64,000 bases of DNA, from assembly GCF_023371205.1 (NCBI RefSeq), contig NZ_JAMCCO010000001.1, positions 182,662 to 246,661 on the forward strand. Direction: 5' to 3'. The DNA comes from Parvivirga hydrogeniphila (GTDB taxonomy: Bacteria > Actinomycetota > Coriobacteriia > Anaerosomatales > Anaerosomataceae). Within the stretch, counting starts at the first letter, position 1. Every line of letters begins with the position of its first letter. The notes beneath the pieces are model-generated. The model saw nothing but the letters and a program-made list of their open reading frames with translations. It did not search any database and was not told the DNA's origin. Shown in pieces: positions 32,085 to 42,105 of this stretch. The position numbers were made by a program, and so were the translations under genes.

Positions 32085-35000
32085 TCAGCCGCCGAGCATG
32101 ACGACGCGGACGAGGTGCGCCTTCCCGTCGTCGAGAAGCGGCACGAGCCCGTCAGCAGTCACGACGCCATCGCACTCGACCCGCTCGACGCCGCGGTTGA
32201 CGCCCCGCGGGTTCTCGAACGAGATCTCGTAGCTGCTCGATCCGAATCGGTAGGTGACCGTCCAGGCGCTCCACGACTTCGGGACGCATGGCTCGAAGGC
32301 CAAGAAGCGCGTTCCGTCGCGCGCGAGCAGGTGAAGCCCGCAGACGTCACGCACCGCGACCCGGTAGTACCAGGCTGCTGAGCCGGTGTACCACGTCCAG
32401 CCGCCACGACCGACGTGCGGTTCGACGGAGTACACGTCCGCCGCCAGGGCGTACGGCTCGACTTTGTAGCGCGCCACCGCTTCTGCATCGACGGCGTGCG
32501 AGAGCGGGTTGATGAGGTCGAGGATCGCCACCGCCTCGTCACCGTCGCCGAGCGCAGCGTACGCCAATGCGACCCACACGGCGGCGTGGGTGTACTGCCC
32601 GCCGTTCTCTCGCACTCCTGGCACGTATCCCTTGATGTAGCCGGGGTCGTGCGGCATGCGGTCGAACGGCGGAGCGAGCAGCGCCACGAGCCCGTCGTCC
32701 CACCGGATGAGCTTCTCTTCCACGCTCTCGAGGGCGCGCTGCATGCGAGCGGGGTCGCCCGCGCCGGAGATGGCCGCCCACGCTTGCGCGATCGCGTCGA
32801 TCTTACACTCCTCCGACGAGCGGCTGCCGAGCGGCGTCCCGTCGTCGAAGTACGCGCGGCGGTACCACGCGCCGTCCCACGCCTCGCGCTCGACGGCGGC
32901 GATAAGGTCCCGGGCGCGCTGTCGCCAGCGCTCGGCGGCCTCGACGTCTCCGCGCCCATCGGCCACGTTCGCGAACGAGCGAAGCACGACGTCGAGGAAC
33001 CACGCCATCCACACGCTCTCGCCGCTCCCGCCGATACCGACGCGGTTCATGCCGTCGTTCCAGTCGCCGCCGCCCATCAGCGGGAGGCCGTGCGGGCCGG
33101 TGCCCGCGCTTGCCTCGATCGCGCGCACGCAGTGCTCGTAGACGGTGGCGACCTCCACCGACGGCTTCGGCTCGAAGTACAGGTCTTCGCGTTCGGGAGG
33201 CACGGGTGGCCCTTCCACGAACGGCGTCTCCACATCCAGCACGCTCTCGTCGCCGGTCGCGTTCACGTACTCGGCCACCACGAACGGCAGCCACAGTCGG
33301 TCGTCCACGAAGCGCGTACGCACGCCGCGGCCGCTCACGGGCTGCCACCAGTGCAGCACGTCGCCCTCGCGGAACTGGCGCCGCGAGGCCTCGATGATGT
33401 GTTCGCGCACGAGGTCCGGGCGCACGTACAGCAGCGCGAGGCAGTCCTGGAGCTGGTCGCGGAAGCCGAACGCGCCGCTCGACTGGTACAGCGCCGTGCG
33501 GCCCCAGAAGCGGCACGCGAGCGCCTGGTACAGCACGGGTCCGTTGATGAGGCGGTCGAGCGTCTCGTCGGGCGTGCGCACCTCGAGGCGGCCGAGGAGG
33601 TCGCGCCAGAAGGAGCGCGCGCGTTCGGCCTCGCGCTCGACCGAGCCGGGCTCGCGCAGGGCGTGCAGGAGCGCGTGCGCGTCCTCGACGGTCTCCGTCT
33701 GTCCGAGGAAGAACGCCGTCTCGGCGCGCTCGCCGGGAGCGAGGTCGAACGAGACCTGCAGCGCGCCGCAGTTGTCGAGGAACCGCCCGGTCGTCCCCGC
33801 GAGGCGTTCGTTGCGCATGGCAGCAGGCCAGGCGGGGTGGCCGTTCCGGCCCAGGAACTCGGTCCGGTCGGCGGTGAACGACGCGACCTTGCGATCGGCA
33901 GCCAAGAACGCCGGGCGGCCCGGGAAGTCCAGGTTGAACCAGTTGTGCGCCATGAGCGCCTGGGCCTGGTCGTCCCACCACGTCACGACGCGCTGCTGCG
34001 CCTTGCTCCGGGAGTCGCCGAGGCTCCACTCGACCACGTGGAACAGGGAGATGCGTCGCGGACGGCCGGAGCGGTTCTCGACGCTCACCCGCACGATGCG
34101 CACGGGCCTGTCGGCAGAGACGAAGTACGCGACGCGCTGAGCGAGCCCGTGGCTCTCGTGCTCGAACGAGGTGCACCCGGGCGCATGCCGAACGACATAC
34201 GGCGCGTCCGCCCGAGCCGGCGCCGGGGTCGGGCTCCAGTACTCGCCGGTCGCATCGTCGCGCAGGTACAGAAGCTCGCCCGTGCCGTCGCTCACCGGGT
34301 CGTTGTTCCACGTGGAGATGCGGTTCTCGTGGCTGTTGAGCGCCCATGTGCACCCGACGCCGGCCTCCGAGACGTACGCCCCGAAGGCCGGATTCGCGAA
34401 CACGTTGATCCACGGAGCGGGGGTCGTCCGCCCAGGCTCCAGGACGATCACGTACTCGCCGGTCGCCGGGTCGAACCCGCCGATGCCGTTGTCGAGCACA
34501 AGCCGTGGCCGCTCGAAGGGCGGCAGCGGGTCGTTCGCGGGCGGGTCTGTCGGCACGAGCGGATTCGGCGGGAGCGGGCGCAGCGCGCGCTGCTCGAGCT
34601 GGAGCGCGATCGGTCCCGCATCGGCCTTGAGCACGGCACGGGCCACGCTGCGCAGCGCGTCCACGATCTCCGGCGCGATCTGGTCGGCGGCGCGCAGGTG
34701 CACGCCGGCGGGCCGGTCGAGCATCTGCAGCGCATGCCCGGTGCGCACGAGCGCGCGCAGCCGGCCGTCGAGGGCAGACGAGTACGCGCTCGGCTTGGTG
34801 TTGAGGACGACCAGGTCGCACTCGAAGCCCCGGCTCCGCCAGTACTGGTGGGCGAGCAGCGCTTGGCGCACCAGCGGCGTGTCCTCCAGCCGCTCGATCT
34901 CGACGAGCAGGATCGGGTAGTCGCCCGAGATGCCGATCGACCACAGCGCGGAGATCGGGAGGCGGTTCTCCGTCTCGGTGTAGACCTTCAGGCGCGAGTA

Positions 35001-38000
35001 CGGGTCGGTGAGCAGCAGCCGCGACGCCAACCGCTGGTACACGACGGCCTCCTGCGGCGTGATGCCCAGGTCCCGAAGCTCGATCTGGCTCGTCGACCAC
35101 GCCAAGTCGAGCGCCCGCTGGGCGCTCCGGATGTCGCGGTACTTCTCCGCGTACGCGACGGCCCTCTCGCGGCTGTCCGCGACCCCGAGCGCGAGCGCAA
35201 GCCGGGCGGACTGCCCGGGCTCCAGCACCAGCGTCTGGCGGATGGCGCAGATCGGGTCGAGCACCGCGCCGGTGGCGCCCGTCAGGCGCCCATCGCCGAC
35301 GATGGCCTGCGCCGCGGCGGGCGTCCCGAGGCGCCCGAGGAACGCGGCCCGATCGGTCTCGTACGACCACGTGCAGCGCGACGTGAGGTCGCACGCGATC
35401 GTGTGGACCGCCCAGACGCGCGGCTCTTCAGAAGAGCGCGGGCGGCGGGAGAAGAGCAGCGCGCCCAGCTCGTCGAGCGCCTCCGTCTCCACGAACAGGT
35501 TGCTGAATGCGCGGTGCGCCCGGTCCGCCCCCCGCACCGCGAGCGTGATCTCAGCGTACGAGGTGATCTCGAGGTACGCGGGCTCTCGGCGGCGGTTCGT
35601 CACCGTCAGGCGGCGCACCTCCACGTCGTCTTCCGGCGAGACGACGATCTCGGTGTGCGTCTCGATACCGTCGTCGATGCGGCGGAACTCCGCCTTGTCC
35701 GGCGAGAACACGACGTGGTACTCGTCGGGCTCCGTGCAGGTCGGCTGGTATGCCGCCGACCACGCCCGCTTGCTCTCAACGTCCTTCAGGTACACGAAGA
35801 AGCCCCAGCAGTCGCGCGTGAGGTCCTCGCGGTAGCGCGTCACGGTGCGGTCGCGCCAGCGGGAGTATCCGCCGCCCGCGTTCGTGACCATCACCGAGTA
35901 CGAGCCGTTCGACAGGAAGTGCGTCGCGGGCACCGGCGTGTGCGGCGTCGGGTACGAGCGGGCGACGGGCGGCGGCACCTCGCGGACGGAGCGGACGAAC
36001 TCCACCTCCTCGACGTGCGGCTTGGCGGTCTGGACACGCCGAGGCACGCGCTCCTGCAGCAGGAGCTCGGCCGTCTGGACCACCGGGTCGCGGTGGAACC
36101 GCTCCTGCATCGCGCCGTTCGTGAGGGCGTTGCCGAGCGCCACAAGACCCATGCCCTGGTGGTGCGCCATGTACGCCCGCACGATCGCGCGCTCCTGTCC
36201 GGGCGGGACGCGCCCGGGGGTGTAGTCGATCGCCTCGTAGTACCCAAAGCGACCGCGTGCGCCCTGGTCCGCCAGCACAGCGAGGTTCTGCGCGGCCGCG
36301 AGCGGGTCGACGAGGAGCGCAAGCATCGAGGCGTACGGAGCGACGACGACGTCGTCGGAAAGCCCGCGCTTGAGGCCCAGGCCTGGAACGCCGAACGCCT
36401 GGTACTGGTAGGTCATGTTCGCGTCGCGCGCCGCGAAGGCGGACTCCGACACGCCCCACGGCACGCCGCGCTGCCGGCCGTACTGGACCTGCCGCCGCAC
36501 CACCGCACGGCAGGTGAGGTCGAGCAGCGTTCCGGGATAGGAGCGCATCACCAGAAGCGGCATCAGGTACTCGAACATGCTCGCGCTCCAGCTGACGAGC
36601 GCCTTGCCGCCGCCGGTCTCGGTGATCGCGCGGCTCAGGCGGAACCAGTGCTCCTGCGGCACGTCGCCTTTCGCGATGGCCACGAAGCTCGCCAGGCGGC
36701 ACTCGCTCGCGAGCATGTCGTAGAACGACGCGTCGAGGCGGCCTTCCGCGGTGTTGAATCCGATCGAGAAGACTTTGCGGTTCTCGTCGAAAAGCATGCG
36801 GAAGTCCATCTTCTGCCACATCTGCTGCGAGATGTCGACATCTAGCCTGAGCTCCGCCAAGACCCGGGAGCACTCAGGGCGCGCCGTTCGCAGGGCCGCG
36901 AGGACAGCGGATGCCCACGCGCCGGCCGTGCCGTCGGAGGCGAGCTCCTGAAGCCTGCGCTCGACGACGTCGAGCCCTTCGGCAAGGCCGACCAGGCTCG
37001 GGACGTGCTGCACGATGGGTGCGAGCGCTTCGTCCTCGCGCACCGACGCCGGGGCCGAGCCAAGCAGCGACGCCCACGGTGCGAAGGCGTCGATCTCCGC
37101 GAGCACTGCATCGATGTGCCGGACGACGGCGGAGACGGCGTCGCGGACCGCCTCGCACTCGCAGCGGGCGTCGTCCGCGGGAACGAGGCCGGAGGCGAGG
37201 TCGGACGCCTTCTTCGCGAGCGGGCGCCACGTTGCGAGCGTCGAGCGCCATTCGGCCAGGTCGCGCGGGTCCGTGTCGAGCTCGATGCGTCGCGCGAGCT
37301 CCTCCAGCGTCGTTCGTACCGCCGTCGCCGCGCGCGCATCGCCGTACGCGTGGCGCGCGTCGATCACGTCTTCGAGCGCGACGCGGACGGTATCGGCGAT
37401 CCCCGCGCGCGTTCGGGGCGAGACGATCGGGCCTTCTGAGATCTCGAGAAGCCCGACGCCGAGCGCGATGAGGTGTCCCGCCAGGTTGCCGCTGTCGACA
37501 GTGGACACGTAGGTGGGGCGAAGCGGCTGGAGCGTGAGCGTGTCGTACCAGTTGTAGAAGTGGCCCCGGAACCGCTCGAGGCCGACCATGGTGGCGAGCG
37601 TGCGCGAGGTGCGGTCGACGGCCTGCGAGGTGGTGACGTAGCCGAGGTCGTGGGCCGTGAGCGTCGCCAGGAGCTGGAGCCCCATGTTCGTCGGCGAGGT
37701 GCGGTGCGCGACCGTCGGTGCCGGGTCTTCCTGGAAGTTGTCCGGAGCGAGGTAGTGGTCCTCGGCCGTCACGAAGGTCTCGAAGAACCGCCACGTCCTG
37801 CGTGCGATGCTGCGAAGCGACGCCTTCGTCGGCTCGTCGAGCGGCAGCGCGGCCGTACGCGCGGGTAGACTGATCCGCCACGCGGCGTAGGGGCCGGCCA
37901 GCCACGCGAGCGCGAGCGGAACGAGCGAGCCGGTCGACGCCGGGTCCGCGACCGCTGCCGCGGCGAGGAGCGCGACGGCGCCGCCCTGCGCCGGGAGCAT

Positions 38001-40853
38001 CCGCTTCAGGTGGCCGGGAAGGTCGCGCGCTGCACGGCGCTCTGACTCCGCGGCGGTCTCCCACTCGAGAAGGCCGCGCTTCGAGACGAACAGTCGCCAC
38101 ACCGCACGGCCGATGGCGTCGAGCATCACCCACGCTTGGTGCGGCAGGACAGCGAGGCTGAACAGCGCGCGGGCGGAATCGCGCCAGAAGTCGCGGACGA
38201 TGGAGGGGACGTCGCCGCGGACGTCTGCGCCGCGAGGCCGGAACAAGAGCGAGTCCGCGACGCTGAAGTACACGGGGAAGAACACGACGCCGAGGACGAC
38301 CAAAAGAAGCGCCCAGTCCGGGCCCGGCAGCAGCGCCGCGCCGCCTGCCGCGAGCGCCACCATGACAGGCGGGAACAGGCTGCGCCGCAGGTTGTCGGCG
38401 ATCTTCCAGCGATGCAGGCCCTTAAGCGGCGTTCGCTCGTGACCGCCCTTGCACGGCACCCGTGGGAGCAGCCACAAGATGGTCTGCCAGTCGCCGCGCA
38501 CCCATCGATGCAGGCGCGCCGTGTGCGAGATGTACGTCGAGGGCTGGTCGTCCAGCACCTCGATGTCGCTCGCCAGCGCGGTCTTGAGGTAGCTTCCCTC
38601 GAGCAGGTCGTGCGAGAGCAGGAGGTTCTCGGGCAGTCTGTCGGCGAGCACCGCGTGGTAGACGTCCACCTCGAAGACGCCTTTGCCCGTGAACGAGCCC
38701 TCGCCGAAGACGTCTTGGTACGTGTCAGACACCGCGCCCGCGTACGGGTCGATGCCGGTGGCTCCGGAGTACAGCCACGCGAACGGCGAGCGTAGCGACC
38801 CCTCGAGCGACATGCCGACGCGCGGCTGCACGAGCCCGTACCCGCGCACCACCGCTCGCCGCGAGACGTCCACCTCGGCCCGGTTGAGCGGGTGGGCGAT
38901 GGTGCACACGAGCTTGCGGGCAGCGTCTCGCGGCAGGACGGTGTCGGCGTCGAGCGTGATGACGAAGGCCACGTCAGCGAGCTCGTGGAGGGGCCCTTCC
39001 TTCACGATGAAGCCGCTTCCGTTCCCGCCCCGCACGAACCTGACGAGGTCCTCGATCGCTCCTCGCTTGCGCTCGCGGCCCATCCACACGCCGTCGCGCT
39101 CGTTGAAGCCCCGCTGGCGGATCAGGAGCGCGAACGGCGCGCGCCCGGAAGCCCCGTGCCGTGCGTTCAGGACCGCGATGCCGTTGCGCGCAGCGTCGAT
39201 GATGGCAGCGTCGCGCGGCATCGTTTGCTCGGGCGCGACCGGCAGGTCGCCGAGGACGGCGAAGGTGAGGTTCTCGTCCGTGTTGGCGAGGTATGCGACC
39301 TCGAGGTTGTCGATGACTCGCTGCGTCGATTCCGGTGACGAGAGCAGAGCGGGGATGACGACGAGCGTCTTGTGCGAAGGGAGGAGCGGCCTGAGGAAGT
39401 CGAGCTTCGGCAGCACGCGTGGCGGCCAGATCCACGCTGCGATGCGATTCGTGAGGTTGAGCGCGAGGTCGGATGCAGGAATGAGAGCGAGCACGGTGGC
39501 CGCGACGACGCGCCACCCCGTCGCTCCGAGGCCGGTCGCAACAAGCGCGAATCCGCACGAAAGGAGCACCGTGAACAGGGCGATGAGCCCCCAGTAGATG
39601 ACGCCTTTGCTCGCGAGCGGCCCGCGATACATGAGCTCGCGCACAAGGGGCCGGTACTGCACGCTCTGCTCGAAACGGTACCGGCCGCGACTGATGAGGT
39701 AGTAGCCGACGTGCGCTCCCCGAGCGTCGGTCGGGTCGTCGTCGAGGGCCGTGAGCGCGTGGCTCACGGCCGCCTCCGCCACCTCGATCTCGGTAAGCGG
39801 GCTTCGTTTGGCGATCTGCTCCACGGCCTTGCGGTAGCGGTCGCGCGACGCGAAGTCCATGCGGTCGTACACGCCTGCCGGGTCCTGCCGCAAGACGTGG
39901 TCGACGACCGAGCAGTCCTCGAAGAAGTCGCGCCATTCGAGGGCCGACAAGAAGCGCATCGCCGTGATGGTGTTGGCGACCGAGACCTGGTCGACCGCCT
40001 GGCGGTGCTGCTCTTCGTGCGCGAGCTCCTCGAACGAGACCCCGAGCTCCGCTAGCCGCTCGTCTCCCCACGCAACGGCCGGATCCACCGATGGGTCCTG
40101 GTCGCGCAGGCGCTGCAAGAATCGCAGCAGGAACGACGCCGAAGGCCTGCGGACAGAGGAGGCGAGCTCCTCGACGACGGACCCGACTCCTTCGCCGGAC
40201 CGGATCGCGGCCTCGATCACGCGGTTGGCCCACTCGTCGGCTTCGACGCTCGCGACGTGGGCGGCGAGCACCCGGCGGCCGAGCCGTGCGAGGTTCTCCA
40301 CGAGGGTGATCCGCAAGGCGATGGGGACGGCCCACAGCTCGCCGATCGTGAGCGGCGAGACGTCTTGGTACGCCATGACGAACTGCTCGAGCAGCCCCTT
40401 GTCCAGCCGCGCGTCGGTGCCAGCCACGAGGAGCGCCACGGCCTCGAAGATGCGCGGGAGACCGGCAAGCGGCCCTTCTGTCAGCCGCGGCAGCTCTGCG
40501 CCGAACGCCGCCGGAAGGTCTTGGCGGGCGACGCGGATCTGCTCCTCGACGAGGTAGTGGTTGTCCAGCAGCCACTCCGCTGCGACGGAGACCGAGACCT
40601 GCGCGTGGGCGTCTTCAGCGAGCCGGCGATGCGTCGCGGCCACCGAGCGCTCCGCTTCGTCCAGGAGGCCCAGCAGCGGGGTGCGCACGGCCAGCCGCTT
40701 GGACTCCCATGACTGCGCAGCAGCGAGCGCCCGCCCCTCGTCGGCAAGGCGTTGCGCGCTCATGAGCTCGATGCGGAGCGGCGCCCCCTTCTCGACCGCT
40801 TCCCACAGGGCCGACCGCGCGTCGCGCATATCGTCTCCACCGCTCATCGACAT
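32085..40853 (-). CDS. Giant cyclic beta-1,2-glucan synthase-like protein (GT84 + glycoamylase-like + GH94)
   Basis: A 2922-aa multidomain membrane enzyme of the NdvB/ChvB/Cgs layout. The N-terminal third has membrane segments near residues 420-470, 825-865 and 955-990 around a processive glycosyltransferase, with LDADT at about 634 and LHRWVRGDWQ at about 784. A glycoamylase-like domain follows (about 1330-1560, FSIGFNTAEGRLDASFYDML). Two carbohydrate-binding/GH94-type beta domains and a C-terminal GH94 phosphorylase domain complete it (GGDWNDGMNRVG at about 2594). Known members make periplasmic cyclic glucans in proteobacteria. The ATG at 40853 follows AAGGGA; two later ATGs are possible. 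Confidence 0.93.
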   Translation of the reverse strand: MSMSGGDDMRDARSALWEAVEKGAPLRIELMSAQRLADEGRALAAAQSWESKRLAVRTPLLGLLDEAERSVAATHRRLAEDAHAQVSVSVAAEWLLDNHYLVEEQIRVARQDLPAAFGAELPRLTEGPLAGLPRIFEAVALLVAGTDARLDKGLLEQFVMAYQDVSPLTIGELWAVPIALRITLVENLARLGRRVLAAHVASVEADEWANRVIEAAIRSGEGVGSVVEELASSVRRPSASFLLRFLQRLRDQDPSVDPAVAWGDERLAELGVSFEELAHEEQHRQAVDQVSVANTITAMRFLSALEWRDFFEDCSVVDHVLRQDPAGVYDRMDFASRDRYRKAVEQIAKRSPLTEIEVAEAAVSHALTALDDDPTDARGAHVGYYLISRGRYRFEQSVQYRPLVRELMYRGPLASKGVIYWGLIALFTVLLSCGFALVATGLGATGWRVVAATVLALIPASDLALNLTNRIAAWIWPPRVLPKLDFLRPLLPSHKTLVVIPALLSSPESTQRVIDNLEVAYLANTDENLTFAVLGDLPVAPEQTMPRDAAIIDAARNGIAVLNARHGASGRAPFALLIRQRGFNERDGVWMGRERKRGAIEDLVRFVRGGNGSGFIVKEGPLHELADVAFVITLDADTVLPRDAARKLVCTIAHPLNRAEVDVSRRAVVRGYGLVQPRVGMSLEGSLRSPFAWLYSGATGIDPYAGAVSDTYQDVFGEGSFTGKGVFEVDVYHAVLADRLPENLLLSHDLLEGSYLKTALASDIEVLDDQPSTYISHTARLHRWVRGDWQTILWLLPRVPCKGGHERTPLKGLHRWKIADNLRRSLFPPVMVALAAGGAALLPGPDWALLLVVLGVVFFPVYFSVADSLLFRPRGADVRGDVPSIVRDFWRDSARALFSLAVLPHQAWVMLDAIGRAVWRLFVSKRGLLEWETAAESERRAARDLPGHLKRMLPAQGGAVALLAAAAVADPASTGSLVPLALAWLAGPYAAWRISLPARTAALPLDEPTKASLRSIARRTWRFFETFVTAEDHYLAPDNFQEDPAPTVAHRTSPTNMGLQLLATLTAHDLGYVTTSQAVDRTSRTLATMVGLERFRGHFYNWYDTLTLQPLRPTYVSTVDSGNLAGHLIALGVGLLEISEGPIVSPRTRAGIADTVRVALEDVIDARHAYGDARAATAVRTTLEELARRIELDTDPRDLAEWRSTLATWRPLAKKASDLASGLVPADDARCECEAVRDAVSAVVRHIDAVLAEIDAFAPWASLLGSAPASVREDEALAPIVQHVPSLVGLAEGLDVVERRLQELASDGTAGAWASAVLAALRTARPECSRVLAELRLDVDISQQMWQKMDFRMLFDENRKVFSIGFNTAEGRLDASFYDMLASECRLASFVAIAKGDVPQEHWFRLSRAITETGGGKALVSWSASMFEYLMPLLVMRSYPGTLLDLTCRAVVRRQVQYGRQRGVPWGVSESAFAARDANMTYQYQAFGVPGLGLKRGLSDDVVVAPYASMLALLVDPLAAAQNLAVLADQGARGRFGYYEAIDYTPGRVPPGQERAIVRAYMAHHQGMGLVALGNALTNGAMQERFHRDPVVQTAELLLQERVPRRVQTAKPHVEEVEFVRSVREVPPPVARSYPTPHTPVPATHFLSNGSYSVMVTNAGGGYSRWRDRTVTRYREDLTRDCWGFFVYLKDVESKRAWSAAYQPTCTEPDEYHVVFSPDKAEFRRIDDGIETHTEIVVSPEDDVEVRRLTVTNRRREPAYLEITSYAEITLAVRGADRAHRAFSNLFVETEALDELGALLFSRRPRSSEEPRVWAVHTIACDLTSRCTWSYETDRAAFLGRLGTPAAAQAIVGDGRLTGATGAVLDPICAIRQTLVLEPGQSARLALALGVADSRERAVAYAEKYRDIRSAQRALDLAWSTSQIELRDLGITPQEAVVYQRLASRLLLTDPYSRLKVYTETENRLPISALWSIGISGDYPILLVEIERLEDTPLVRQALLAHQYWRSRGFECDLVVLNTKPSAYSSALDGRLRALVRTGHALQMLDRPAGVHLRAADQIAPEIVDALRSVARAVLKADAGPIALQLEQRALRPLPPNPLVPTDPPANDPLPPFERPRLVLDNGIGGFDPATGEYVIVLEPGRTTPAPWINVFANPAFGAYVSEAGVGCTWALNSHENRISTWNNDPVSDGTGELLYLRDDATGEYWSPTPAPARADAPYVVRHAPGCTSFEHESHGLAQRVAYFVSADRPVRIVRVSVENRSGRPRRISLFHVVEWSLGDSRSKAQQRVVTWWDDQAQALMAHNWFNLDFPGRPAFLAADRKVASFTADRTEFLGRNGHPAWPAAMRNERLAGTTGRFLDNCGALQVSFDLAPGERAETAFFLGQTETVEDAHALLHALREPGSVEREAERARSFWRDLLGRLEVRTPDETLDRLINGPVLYQALACRFWGRTALYQSSGAFGFRDQLQDCLALLYVRPDLVREHIIEASRRQFREGDVLHWWQPVSGRGVRTRFVDDRLWLPFVVAEYVNATGDESVLDVETPFVEGPPVPPEREDLYFEPKPSVEVATVYEHCVRAIEASAGTGPHGLPLMGGGDWNDGMNRVGIGGSGESVWMAWFLDVVLRSFANVADGRGDVEAAERWRQRARDLIAAVEREAWDGAWYRRAYFDDGTPLGSRSSEECKIDAIAQAWAAISGAGDPARMQRALESVEEKLIRWDDGLVALLAPPFDRMPHDPGYIKGYVPGVRENGGQYTHAAVWVALAYAALGDGDEAVAILDLINPLSHAVDAEAVARYKVEPYALAADVYSVEPHVGRGGWTWYTGSAAWYYRVAVRDVCGLHLLARDGTRFLAFEPCVPKSWSAWTVTYRFGSSSYEISFENPRGVNRGVERVECDGVVTADGLVPLLDDGKAHLVRVVMLGG

Positions 40854-40882
40854 GGCCGATCCCTTGTATTCTGCCACGAAAC

Positions 40883-40936
40883 GGGCACGCAGACGGCATG
40901 GCGTTTGCATACGACAGGGGCACGACGACGGCATGG
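40883..40936. repeat. Imperfect 19-bp direct repeat in the divergent promoter region
   Basis: The 19-mer at 40883-40901 (GGGCACGCAGACGGCATGG) recurs at 40918-40936 with only CA changed to AC, offset 35 bp. Both copies are followed by TTGC-containing sequence. They lie between the glucan synthase start and the selenoprotein promoter. They could be paired regulator sites or a small promoter duplication. Confidence 0.65.
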
Positions 40937-40939
40937 AGA

Positions 40940-40968
40940 TTGCTATAGCATACCCAACGGGGTATACT
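40940..40968 (+). promoter_or_regulatory. Promoter of the rhodanese-thioredoxin selenoprotein gene
   Basis: TTGCTA (40940-40945), 17-bp spacer, TATACT (40963-40968). The predicted start near 40975 gives a short leader with GGACGGAG six bases before the ATG. The spacer and -10 overlap an inverted repeat, consistent with repression by a DNA-binding protein. Confidence 0.72.
40950..40965. promoter_or_regulatory. CsoR/CstR-like operator (inverted repeat)
   Basis: ATACCC-AACG-GGGTAT is a perfect 6-bp inverted repeat with a 4-bp spacer. Such AT-flanked C-tract/G-tract dyads are the binding sites of CsoR-family repressors (copper-sensing CsoR, persulfide-sensing CstR). It overlaps the -10 hexamer of the selenoprotein promoter. 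The regulated gene encodes a rhodanese, so sulfane-sulfur control is plausible. No CsoR-family gene is in the window. Confidence 0.62.
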
Positions 40969-40998
40969 TAGCACGATAGCGAGAGGACGGAGCCATCC

Positions 40999-41760
40999 AT
41001 GGCGAACGGCAAGAAGGCGGTGGGAAGCACGCAGACGCAGCGGAGCCCGAAGGCCCGGTGGATCGTCGCGGGCGTCGTGCTGCTCGCGCTGGCGGCGATC
41101 GTGGCGATCGGAGCGCTCGGGCGCTCGGGGCCGCTGCCTGCCTCGGGAGACGTCTCGAATGTCGAGGCGAAGTCCCTGATCAAGCGCGGGGCAAGAATCG
41201 TCGATGTGCGCACCCCCGAGGAGTTCGCGGCGGCGCACATCCCCGGCGCCGAGAACGTCCCGATGGATCGGGTCGTGGCGCAGGCCCAGTCGTGGGACAA
41301 GACCGAGCCGGTGCTCCTGTACTGCGCCACGGGCGAGCGCTCTGCATACGTGTTCCAGCAACTTTCGCAGGCGGGGTTCCAGCACCTGTACAACCTGAAG
41401 GCGGGGATCGTCGCGTGGGACGGCGACGTGGACTCCGGTTCGTCGACGAAGACGGCCGATGGGCTCCAGCCGCTTGCGAGCGGCCTGCCGGCGATGTACG
41501 AGTTCTTCACCGACTGGTGACCCACCTGCCGGAAGATGGCGCCCGTGGTCGACGGGCTGAAGGGCCAGTACGAAGGCAAGGTCGAGTTCAAGCTCTACGA
41601 CGTGGAGAAGGATCAGGAGGGCTCGCGCCTCGCTGACTCCTTGGGTCTGCAGTACGTGCCGACGTTCGTGTTCGTGTCCTCGGACGGCTCGATCGTCCAG
41701 AAGGTCGTCGGCGAGATGACAGAAGCGAAGATGCGGGAGATCCTCGACTCCTTGAAGTGA
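40999..41760 (+). CDS. Membrane-anchored rhodanese-thioredoxin selenoprotein (TGA read as Sec at residue 174)
   Basis: I annotate one 253-aa gene through an in-frame TGA at 41518-41520. Residues 1-20 are basic and cytoplasmic; about 21-40 form a membrane anchor. A rhodanese domain follows (DVRTPEEFAAAHIPGA at 69-84; catalytic Cys109 in CATGERS). Next is a thioredoxin-like domain: YEFFTDW-U-PTCRKMAP, then YDVEKD, YVPTFVF with the cis-Pro, and VGEMTE. The TGA replaces exactly the first Cys of CxxC, giving UPTC. The downstream ATG at 41536 has no spaced ribosome site and would lack the redox motif. A SECIS-like hairpin follows at 41541-41557. Likely a thiol or sulfane-sulfur reductase facing outside. 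An alternative is a nonsense mutation or base error. Confidence 0.85.
41541..41557 (+). other. Bacterial SECIS-like hairpin
   Basis: Stem GCCCGT (41541-41546) pairs perfectly with ACGGGC (41552-41557), closing a 5-nt loop GGTCG. The loop begins 27 nt after the TGA and carries GGUC, the SelB-contacting element of the Escherichia coli fdhF SECIS. A lower GGC/GCC helix (41538-41540 with 41564-41566) can extend it across an asymmetric bulge. It lies within the coding sequence, as bacterial SECIS elements do. Confidence 0.8.
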
Positions 41761-41780
41761 CGCGGTCCCGAGGGTATAAG
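41752..41780 (+). promoter_or_regulatory. Strong sigma70-type promoter of a candidate RNA gene
   Basis: TTGAAG (41752-41757), 17-bp spacer, TATAAG (41775-41780). It overlaps the last codons of the selenoprotein. The predicted start is near 41787, at the first base of a stable hairpin. No long coding frame follows, which points to a non-coding transcript. Confidence 0.7.
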
Positions 41781-41785
41781 AAGTC

Positions 41786-42083
41786 GAGAGGAGCGTTCTC
41801 CTCTCAGCCTGACCGACGGAGGTGAGGGTATACCGGTGGCAGAGATGGAATCCCAGGCTTCGGTCGGGGCGGCAGATGAAGGCGCCGGTGCCTTCGCCGA
41901 TCGCGACGGTGCGGGCACAGGCGGCCGGGCATAAGCCCCTGGCGATCCGGGAGGTGCGGCCGACAGGGAACGCTCAGTCGGCCAAGAGCTTCCGAGGATA
42001 GCCCTATGGAGGGGCGGCTCGGGCGGTGCGAAGGTCGTCCCGGCCACGGCTTCGAGAGGTCCGCGCATGCGGGCCTCTCGTTT
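41786..42083 (+). ncRNA. Candidate structured non-coding RNA, about 300 nt, unidentified
   Basis: The 345-bp gap between the selenoprotein and tRNA-Ala has its own promoter and intrinsic terminator but no convincing gene. The transcript would open with a perfect 8-bp hairpin, GAGAGGAG-CGTT-CTCCTCTC (41786-41805). Further perfect stems are GAAGGC/GCCTTC (41878-41895) and GGCCGAC/GTCGGCC (41958-41983, 12-nt loop). AGCCTG (41806-41811) can pair with CAGGCT (41854-41859), or GACCGA (41811-41816) with TCGGTC (41860-41865), but not both. I see no RNase P, tmRNA, SRP, 6S or common riboswitch signature. The raiA motif is a class worth testing. A 32-codon frame from GTG 41836 exists but looks incidental. 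Confidence 0.6.
42053..42083 (+). terminator. Intrinsic terminator of the candidate RNA
   Basis: A 12-bp stem (CGAGAGGTCCGC with GCGGGCCTCTCG, one T-G pair) closes the tetraloop GCAT and is followed by TTT. It ends just before the -10 of tRNA-Ala. Confidence 0.78.
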
Positions 42084-42089
42084 CGATGC

Positions 42090-42095
42090 TATACT
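42090..42095 (+). promoter_or_regulatory. -10 element of tRNA-Ala
   Basis: TATACT lies 10 bp before the mature tRNA. No clear -35 is present, because its position falls in the upstream terminator stem. Confidence 0.45.
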
Positions 42096-42105
42096 GCGCG
42101 GTTGC

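Follow-up and report, generated by a model that had tools for sequence, protein, structure and literature searches.

The window (the whole 64,000-nucleotide stretch of DNA analysed here) contains a gene in which a membrane-anchored rhodanese is predicted to be fused to a thioredoxin carrying selenocysteine (Sec) in its redox motif. From comparative sequence evidence, insertion of Sec at codon 174 is near certain, and the selenoprotein reading of the fusion gene is strongly supported. The covariation in the SECIS hairpin, the operator with its regulon and the stand-alone Sec-thioredoxin paralogues go beyond what the first-pass annotation had noticed. The function is assigned with less confidence: we consider it probable that the product is a Sec-decoded extracytoplasmic sulfane-sulfur reductase under CsoR/CstR-type control.

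Reading frame and in-frame TGA

The features that define the gene are as follows.

40999–41760, plus strand: complete reading frame of 253 residues including Sec174, with the stop codon TGA at 41758–41760
41518–41520, plus strand: TGA read as selenocysteine (Sec174), the first residue of the U-P-T-C motif; invariant position
41527–41529, plus strand: resolving Cys177, invariant in an alignment of 36 orthologues
40982–40992, plus strand: ribosome-binding site AGAGGA-c-GGAG before the ATG, found by sequence inspection

The frame starts at ATG 40999 and runs into the in-frame TGA at codon 174. The first-pass annotation had located this TGA exactly at the first cysteine of the thioredoxin CxxC motif; both the frame (EFFTDW-U-PTC) and the Cys-containing thioredoxins of the same genome, which have WCGPC at that site, agree with this placement. 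The frame also ends as a normal thioredoxin, as had been proposed, but only 79 sense codons, and not 80, separate codon 174 from the stop. Gene calling with the standard code splits the gene into ORFs 40999–41520 and 41536–41760, the outcome that had been foreseen. Decoding of TGA as tryptophan, or a reassigned code, was discarded, because the fusion gene and its neighbours terminate at TGA and a dedicated tRNA-Sec is present.

On the minus strand, positions 32085–40829 encode a cyclic beta-glucan-synthase-like protein, about 2914 residues long, in which a glycoamylase and a GH94 domain were recognised. The interval of roughly 345 bases that leads from the selenoprotein gene to a tRNA-Ala (41761–42105) gave no Rfam match, and this tRNA is the sole member of a known RNA family 3' of the fusion gene. 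The same interval includes a direct repeat, GAGGGTATA, and, on the minus strand, a hairpin that resembles a terminator.

Selenocysteine machinery of the host

The host genome (1.84 Mb, 99.99% complete) encodes the full Sec decoding set, selA, selB, selC and selD, the four genes that the first-pass annotation had proposed to look for. The tRNA-Sec, with anticodon TCA, scored 74.9 bits, above its cut-off, and the matches to selB and selA reached 378.6 and 613.4 bits; the three are clustered within C1:437649-441124. Near this cluster lies selD, which has an in-frame TGA of its own (C1:434796) in the motif SGUAAK (SG-U-AAK) and is an independent Sec gene within the same genome. Its TGA corresponds to L108:797-799, and standard callers would place the selD start too late. 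A bacterial selenoprotein is expected to come with a complete decoding set and with a TGA that aligns with the catalytic cysteine of homologues and is kept in relatives; both are found for the fusion gene.

Conservation across the order

The 253-residue fusion protein was used to search 99 relatives and then 69 genomes of the host's order. The fusion is present in 51 of the 69 genomes of the order (class Coriobacteriia), in 53 copies with 38–100% identity. Every one of these copies contains exactly one TGA, at the equivalent of codon 174, and the frame continues past it. The proposed comparison of homologues at this codon thus returned neither a cysteine nor a copy ending there. No Cys version of the fusion was found among the 69 genomes of the order at an E value of 1e-25, nor, at 1e-20, among 396 genomes sampled from the phylum, where the fusion was detected only in the three genomes of the same genus. 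In genome G043, the two halves are adjacent in different frames with an ambiguous base between them, most likely as the result of an assembly fault.

A sequencing error, in which TGC or TGT would be the true codon at 41518–41520, had been raised as an objection in the first pass. It is excluded because the identical TGA recurs in more than 50 independently assembled genomes, and the conservation of the TGA and the frame in 53 copies likewise rules out a pseudogene or a split gene. A candidate fusion from Comamonas (L058, residues 48–228, from the search of genome contigs) was rejected: its alignment starts in a rhodanese gene, crosses a stop and continues in a frame that resembles a glutaredoxin.

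Across the order, about 36 stand-alone TGA-containing thioredoxin-like genes (L087, L089-L104, L109-L127) share the same UxxC site. Most have lipoprotein-like signals, and they usually have the same hairpin as the fusion gene (described below). Two of them, L114 and L119, are immediately preceded by an ATACCC-N4-GGGTAT operator.

Domain structure and topology

The protein is divided into the following parts.

41050–41115, plus strand: N-terminal membrane helix, residues 18–39 (AlphaFold model)
41146–41439, plus strand: rhodanese domain, residues about 50–147 (PF00581; AlphaFold model; Foldseek matches 3mzz and 3iwh, E about 8e-9)
41323–41325, plus strand: rhodanese active-site Cys109 (YCATGERS; alignment of 36 orthologues)
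41470–41757, plus strand: thioredoxin domain, residues 158–253 (PF00085; AlphaFold model; Foldseek matches to thioredoxins)

Pfam delimits the rhodanese domain to residues 56–141 (E 2.8e-19) and the thioredoxin domain to residues 166–250 (E 7.9e-13). The AlphaFold model, obtained with 36 orthologues, has a mean pLDDT of 88.9 and a pTM of 0.59; each domain is predicted with confidence, whereas their relative placement is not, and the linker at residues 148–152 is weak. The best 50 Foldseek matches are all rhodaneses and thioredoxins.

In the model, residue 174 is located just ahead of a long helix (residues 175–190), and the 36 orthologues show no variation at position 174, at Cys177 or at P221, the proline of the VPT loop. 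The C-terminal domain thus displays the PF00085 fold, the redox motif at the helix start and the cis-Pro loop of a thioredoxin. The rhodanese domain carries its cysteine in a CxxGxRS loop (C109-ATGERS), from which sulfurtransferase competence is predicted. As the first-pass annotation had held, cysteine is retained at this site, in at least 90% of the 36 orthologues; one (L029) has a tyrosine. Because L029 lacks the rhodanese cysteine and stand-alone Sec-thioredoxins exist, the two domains can work apart.

The membrane anchor that had been claimed agrees with the predicted helix at residues 18–39, which is replaced in 12 of the 53 orthologues by a lipobox-like N-terminus. The basic N-terminus, together with these lipoboxes, suggests that both domains are situated outside the membrane.

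A covarying SECIS hairpin

A hairpin with the consensus GCCYGU-GGUCG-ACRGGC starts 20 nt past the UGA.

41541–41557, plus strand: SECIS hairpin with a 6-bp stem (41541–41546/41552–41557) and the apical loop GGUCG (41547–41551), defined by comparative pairing

The published model of bacterial SECIS elements calls for a G within the first two loop positions and a UGA-to-loop distance of 16–37 nt (PMC13188914); here the loop starts with GG and lies 26 nt past the UGA. Folded as a single sequence, the hairpin of the window is of unremarkable stability (z -0.94). As such a fold is uninformative, comparative counting was used, and the support for the hairpin as a SECIS element is comparative.

Among 50 distinct 54-nt orthologue sequences, all 300 of 300 stem cells are paired. 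Changes on both sides of the stem were counted in 27 cells, compared with 7.0 expected by shuffling, and none of 500 shuffles reached 27. When the partner strand was slid by 1–3 nt as a control, pairing fell to 24–54%. The pair 41544–41554 occurs as U-A, C-G or G-C, so that synonymous Pro codons co-vary with a Gly/Arg residue, and the pair 41545–41553 changes jointly in Val-to-Leu and Asp-to-Glu replacements. On a tree built leaving those codons out, these two pairs have undergone at least seven and at least five changes. Both sides moved together in every independent comparison, the independent pairs being too few for a significant sign test.

Promoter, operator and the predicted regulon

Two overlapping elements were identified upstream of the gene.

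40940–40968, plus strand: sigma-70-type promoter, TTGCTA (40940–40945), 17-bp spacer, TATACT (40963–40968), found by pattern search
40950–40965, no strand assigned: predicted CsoR/CstR-type operator, palindrome ATACCCAACGGGGTAT, located in the 17-bp spacer and extending into the -10 box

The promoter is the sole promoter-like site in 40880–41900, where 0.1 would be expected in shuffled sequence. The pattern ATACCYNNNNRGGTAT occurs at five sites genome-wide and at none in the reversed control, and ATACC-N6-GGTAT precedes 43 of the 52 orthologues with enough upstream sequence. The other four genomic sites (C1:922662, 930964, 508127 and 966319) are found before genes for a cytoplasmic WCGPC thioredoxin, a CcdA/DsbD-TM protein, a methyl-accepting chemoreceptor (MCP) and an FAD/FeS oxidase, respectively. 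A multihaem cytochrome gene adjoins the chemoreceptor site. The genome has a single gene of the CsoR family (PF02583), at C1:923667-923972 and 0.6 kb from the thioredoxin gene, and an N7 variant of the operator is located at its promoter. Seven relatives have one to five operator sites each and none in the controls; the same site is beside thioredoxin, CcdA, chemoreceptor and fusion genes, with the N7 variant again at the regulator. Some sites in relatives adjoin membrane transporters and an iron-sulfur membrane protein. Membership of the regulon varies by genome, and some of the genes (MCP, FAD oxidase, transporters) have no obvious link to sulfur.

ScCsoR of Streptomyces coelicolor, which senses sulfane sulfur, binds ATACCn6GGTAT and acts as repressor of a rhodanese and a persulfide dioxygenase, and similar operator sites are known for the copper regulators CsoR and RicR (PMC7533328). 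Because this geometry is common to copper CsoR and RicR, the operator DNA alone leaves the inducer unfixed. The regulator has the CsoR fold and keeps both cysteines, and serine occupies the position of the copper-ligand histidine in all genomes checked. This combination of a Cys pair with serine in place of the metal-binding histidine is that of a CstR-type sensor and favours assignment to the persulfide-sensing class. No persulfide dioxygenase was found at the operator sites examined. Reactive sulfur appears to switch on the fusion together with the partners that supply its electrons.

Proposed mechanism and alternative explanations

We infer a scheme that extends from the identity of the repressor and its inducer, through topology, substrate and electron donor, to the direction of sulfur flow and the chemistry. 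The gene would yield one membrane-anchored protein, composed of the N-terminal helix, the rhodanese with Cys109, a short linker and the thioredoxin with Sec174-Pro-Thr-Cys177. UGA 174 would be decoded by the host SelA, SelB, SelD and tRNA-Sec, as directed by the SECIS loop 26 nt downstream. The single CsoR/CstR-type regulator probably represses the gene, acting at the operator between -35 and -10, and modification of its Cys pair by reactive sulfane sulfur would release repression, so that the fusion, the thioredoxin and CcdA are made. Outside the membrane, Cys109 would become persulfidated with sulfane sulfur drawn from polysulfide, persulfide or thiosulfate. Sec174 would attack the persulfide on Cys109, and Cys177 would then resolve the selenosulfide with release of sulfide. 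The oxidised thioredoxin domain would be re-reduced by CcdA with electrons from the co-regulated cytoplasmic thioredoxin. An interaction between thioredoxin and a rhodanese, GlpE of Escherichia coli, is the topic of a paper cited in PMC2593051. That the fusion and its regulon act as a sulfane-sulfur relay has, in our judgement, about an even chance. The complete version, a sulfane-sulfur-inducible transmembrane depersulfidation relay in which cytoplasmic thioredoxin and CcdA serve an extracytoplasmic rhodanese-selenothioredoxin that discharges its own rhodanese persulfide outside the cell, as a persulfide/polysulfide reductase characteristic of the order, is tentative and falls a little short of even odds.

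A genuine Sec protein might instead be a ResA/CcdA-type reductase that serves extracytoplasmic disulfides in general or cytochrome c maturation, and in which the rhodanese is a docking or accessory part and not the source of the substrate. The CcdA homologue under the same operator, the multihaem cytochrome encoded beside another operator site and the stand-alone Sec-thioredoxin lipoproteins that lack a rhodanese would all suit such a role. We regard it as unlikely, given the conservation of the catalytic rhodanese cysteine in at least 90% of orthologues, the retention of the fusion in most of the order, and the resemblance of operator and regulator to sulfane-sulfur systems that control rhodaneses. 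That a genuine Sec protein belongs to a stress regulon for copper (or another metal), governed by a copper-sensing regulator of the CsoR type, is less probable still. The operator geometry would fit, one site has a gene with an HMA domain immediately upstream of it, and next to the regulator is a gene for cation efflux; but serine replaces the ligand histidine of copper CsoR in every genome checked, the recurring members are thioredoxin, CcdA, MCP and the fusion, and no copper ATPase was found at the operator sites examined.

Rhodanese-type proteins are able to bind selenium, and the rhodanese might handle selenium rather than sulfur, as a selenotransferase or in the reduction of selenium compounds at the cell surface, with the Sec-thioredoxin as reductant. 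This capacity and the dependence of the protein on a selenium supply speak for such a role, which is nevertheless improbable to the point of being marginal, as the gene is unlinked to selABD (more than 200 kb away) and the regulator type indicates sulfur or metals. Finally, the TGA might be a sequencing error, the gene a pseudogene, or the codon a true stop, so that the rhodanese and a truncated thioredoxin would be made separately; the two ORFs of a standard caller would accord with such a reading. Set against the TGA in 53 copies from 51 genomes, the selA/B/D/C genes, the covarying SECIS element and the frame conserved past the TGA, the chance that no selenoprotein is made is negligible.

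Relation to known selenoproteins and regulons

As the first-pass annotation had stated, UxxC thioredoxin-like and rhodanese-type selenoproteins are already known: a 2026 inventory includes Sec-thioredoxin (UxxC), four Sec-in-rhodanese forms and TsoB (PMC13188914). The UxxC thioredoxins (PF00085) likewise have Sec at the N-terminal Cys of CxxC and a SECIS element in the coding region. The fusion differs from them by the membrane-anchored rhodanese in front, the motif W-U-P-x-C, the CsoR/CstR-type operator and, in the genomes searched, its confinement to one order of Coriobacteriia. A rhodanese domain is shared with forms 1–4 of the rhodanese selenoproteins (PF00581/NF041203; PMC13188914), which have Sec inside the rhodanese (UxxS, UxxG, CxU), whereas the fusion keeps Cys109 and has Sec in the partner domain. 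TsoB (NF045694), a rhodanese/DsbD fusion-like selenoprotein, also combines rhodanese with Trx/DsbD-type parts. Its model, however, spans 572 positions with two Sec in UxxxxU. The fusion is only 253 residues long, has a single Sec and leaves CcdA to a gene of its own, and it matches the TsoB model weakly (26 bits, cut-off 805). With the CstR regulon of Staphylococcus aureus and the ScCsoR regulon of S. coelicolor, the system shares the ATACC-N6-GGTAT operator, the two-Cys regulator and a rhodanese target; cytoplasmic thioredoxin, CcdA, the chemoreceptor and a selenoprotein are targets beyond theirs.

The combination of a Cys-rhodanese with a Sec-thioredoxin (UxxC), thought to be undescribed in the first pass, is absent from the 2022 and 2026 reviews; an earlier report is possible in the subscription literature, which was thinly covered. 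Selenium and rhodanese both go unmentioned in a paper on EMTCatB1, a genome of the same genus. Sec-thioredoxins and Sec-rhodaneses are thus known, and the fused architecture and its regulon are new relative to the 2026 inventory.

With this gene, the known selenoproteins gain an architecture that annotation pipelines break into two genes, from a lineage of which very few members have been cultured. The use of Sec would be tied to sulfane-sulfur chemistry: a single chain would unite the rhodanese with its likely reductant, and Sec would be placed where a persulfide needs to be attacked. With Sec in all 53 copies and Cys in none within the order, the family lends itself naturally to the question of why Sec is retained. 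The predicted regulon offers direct tests of operator binding, induction by polysulfide and release of sulfide.
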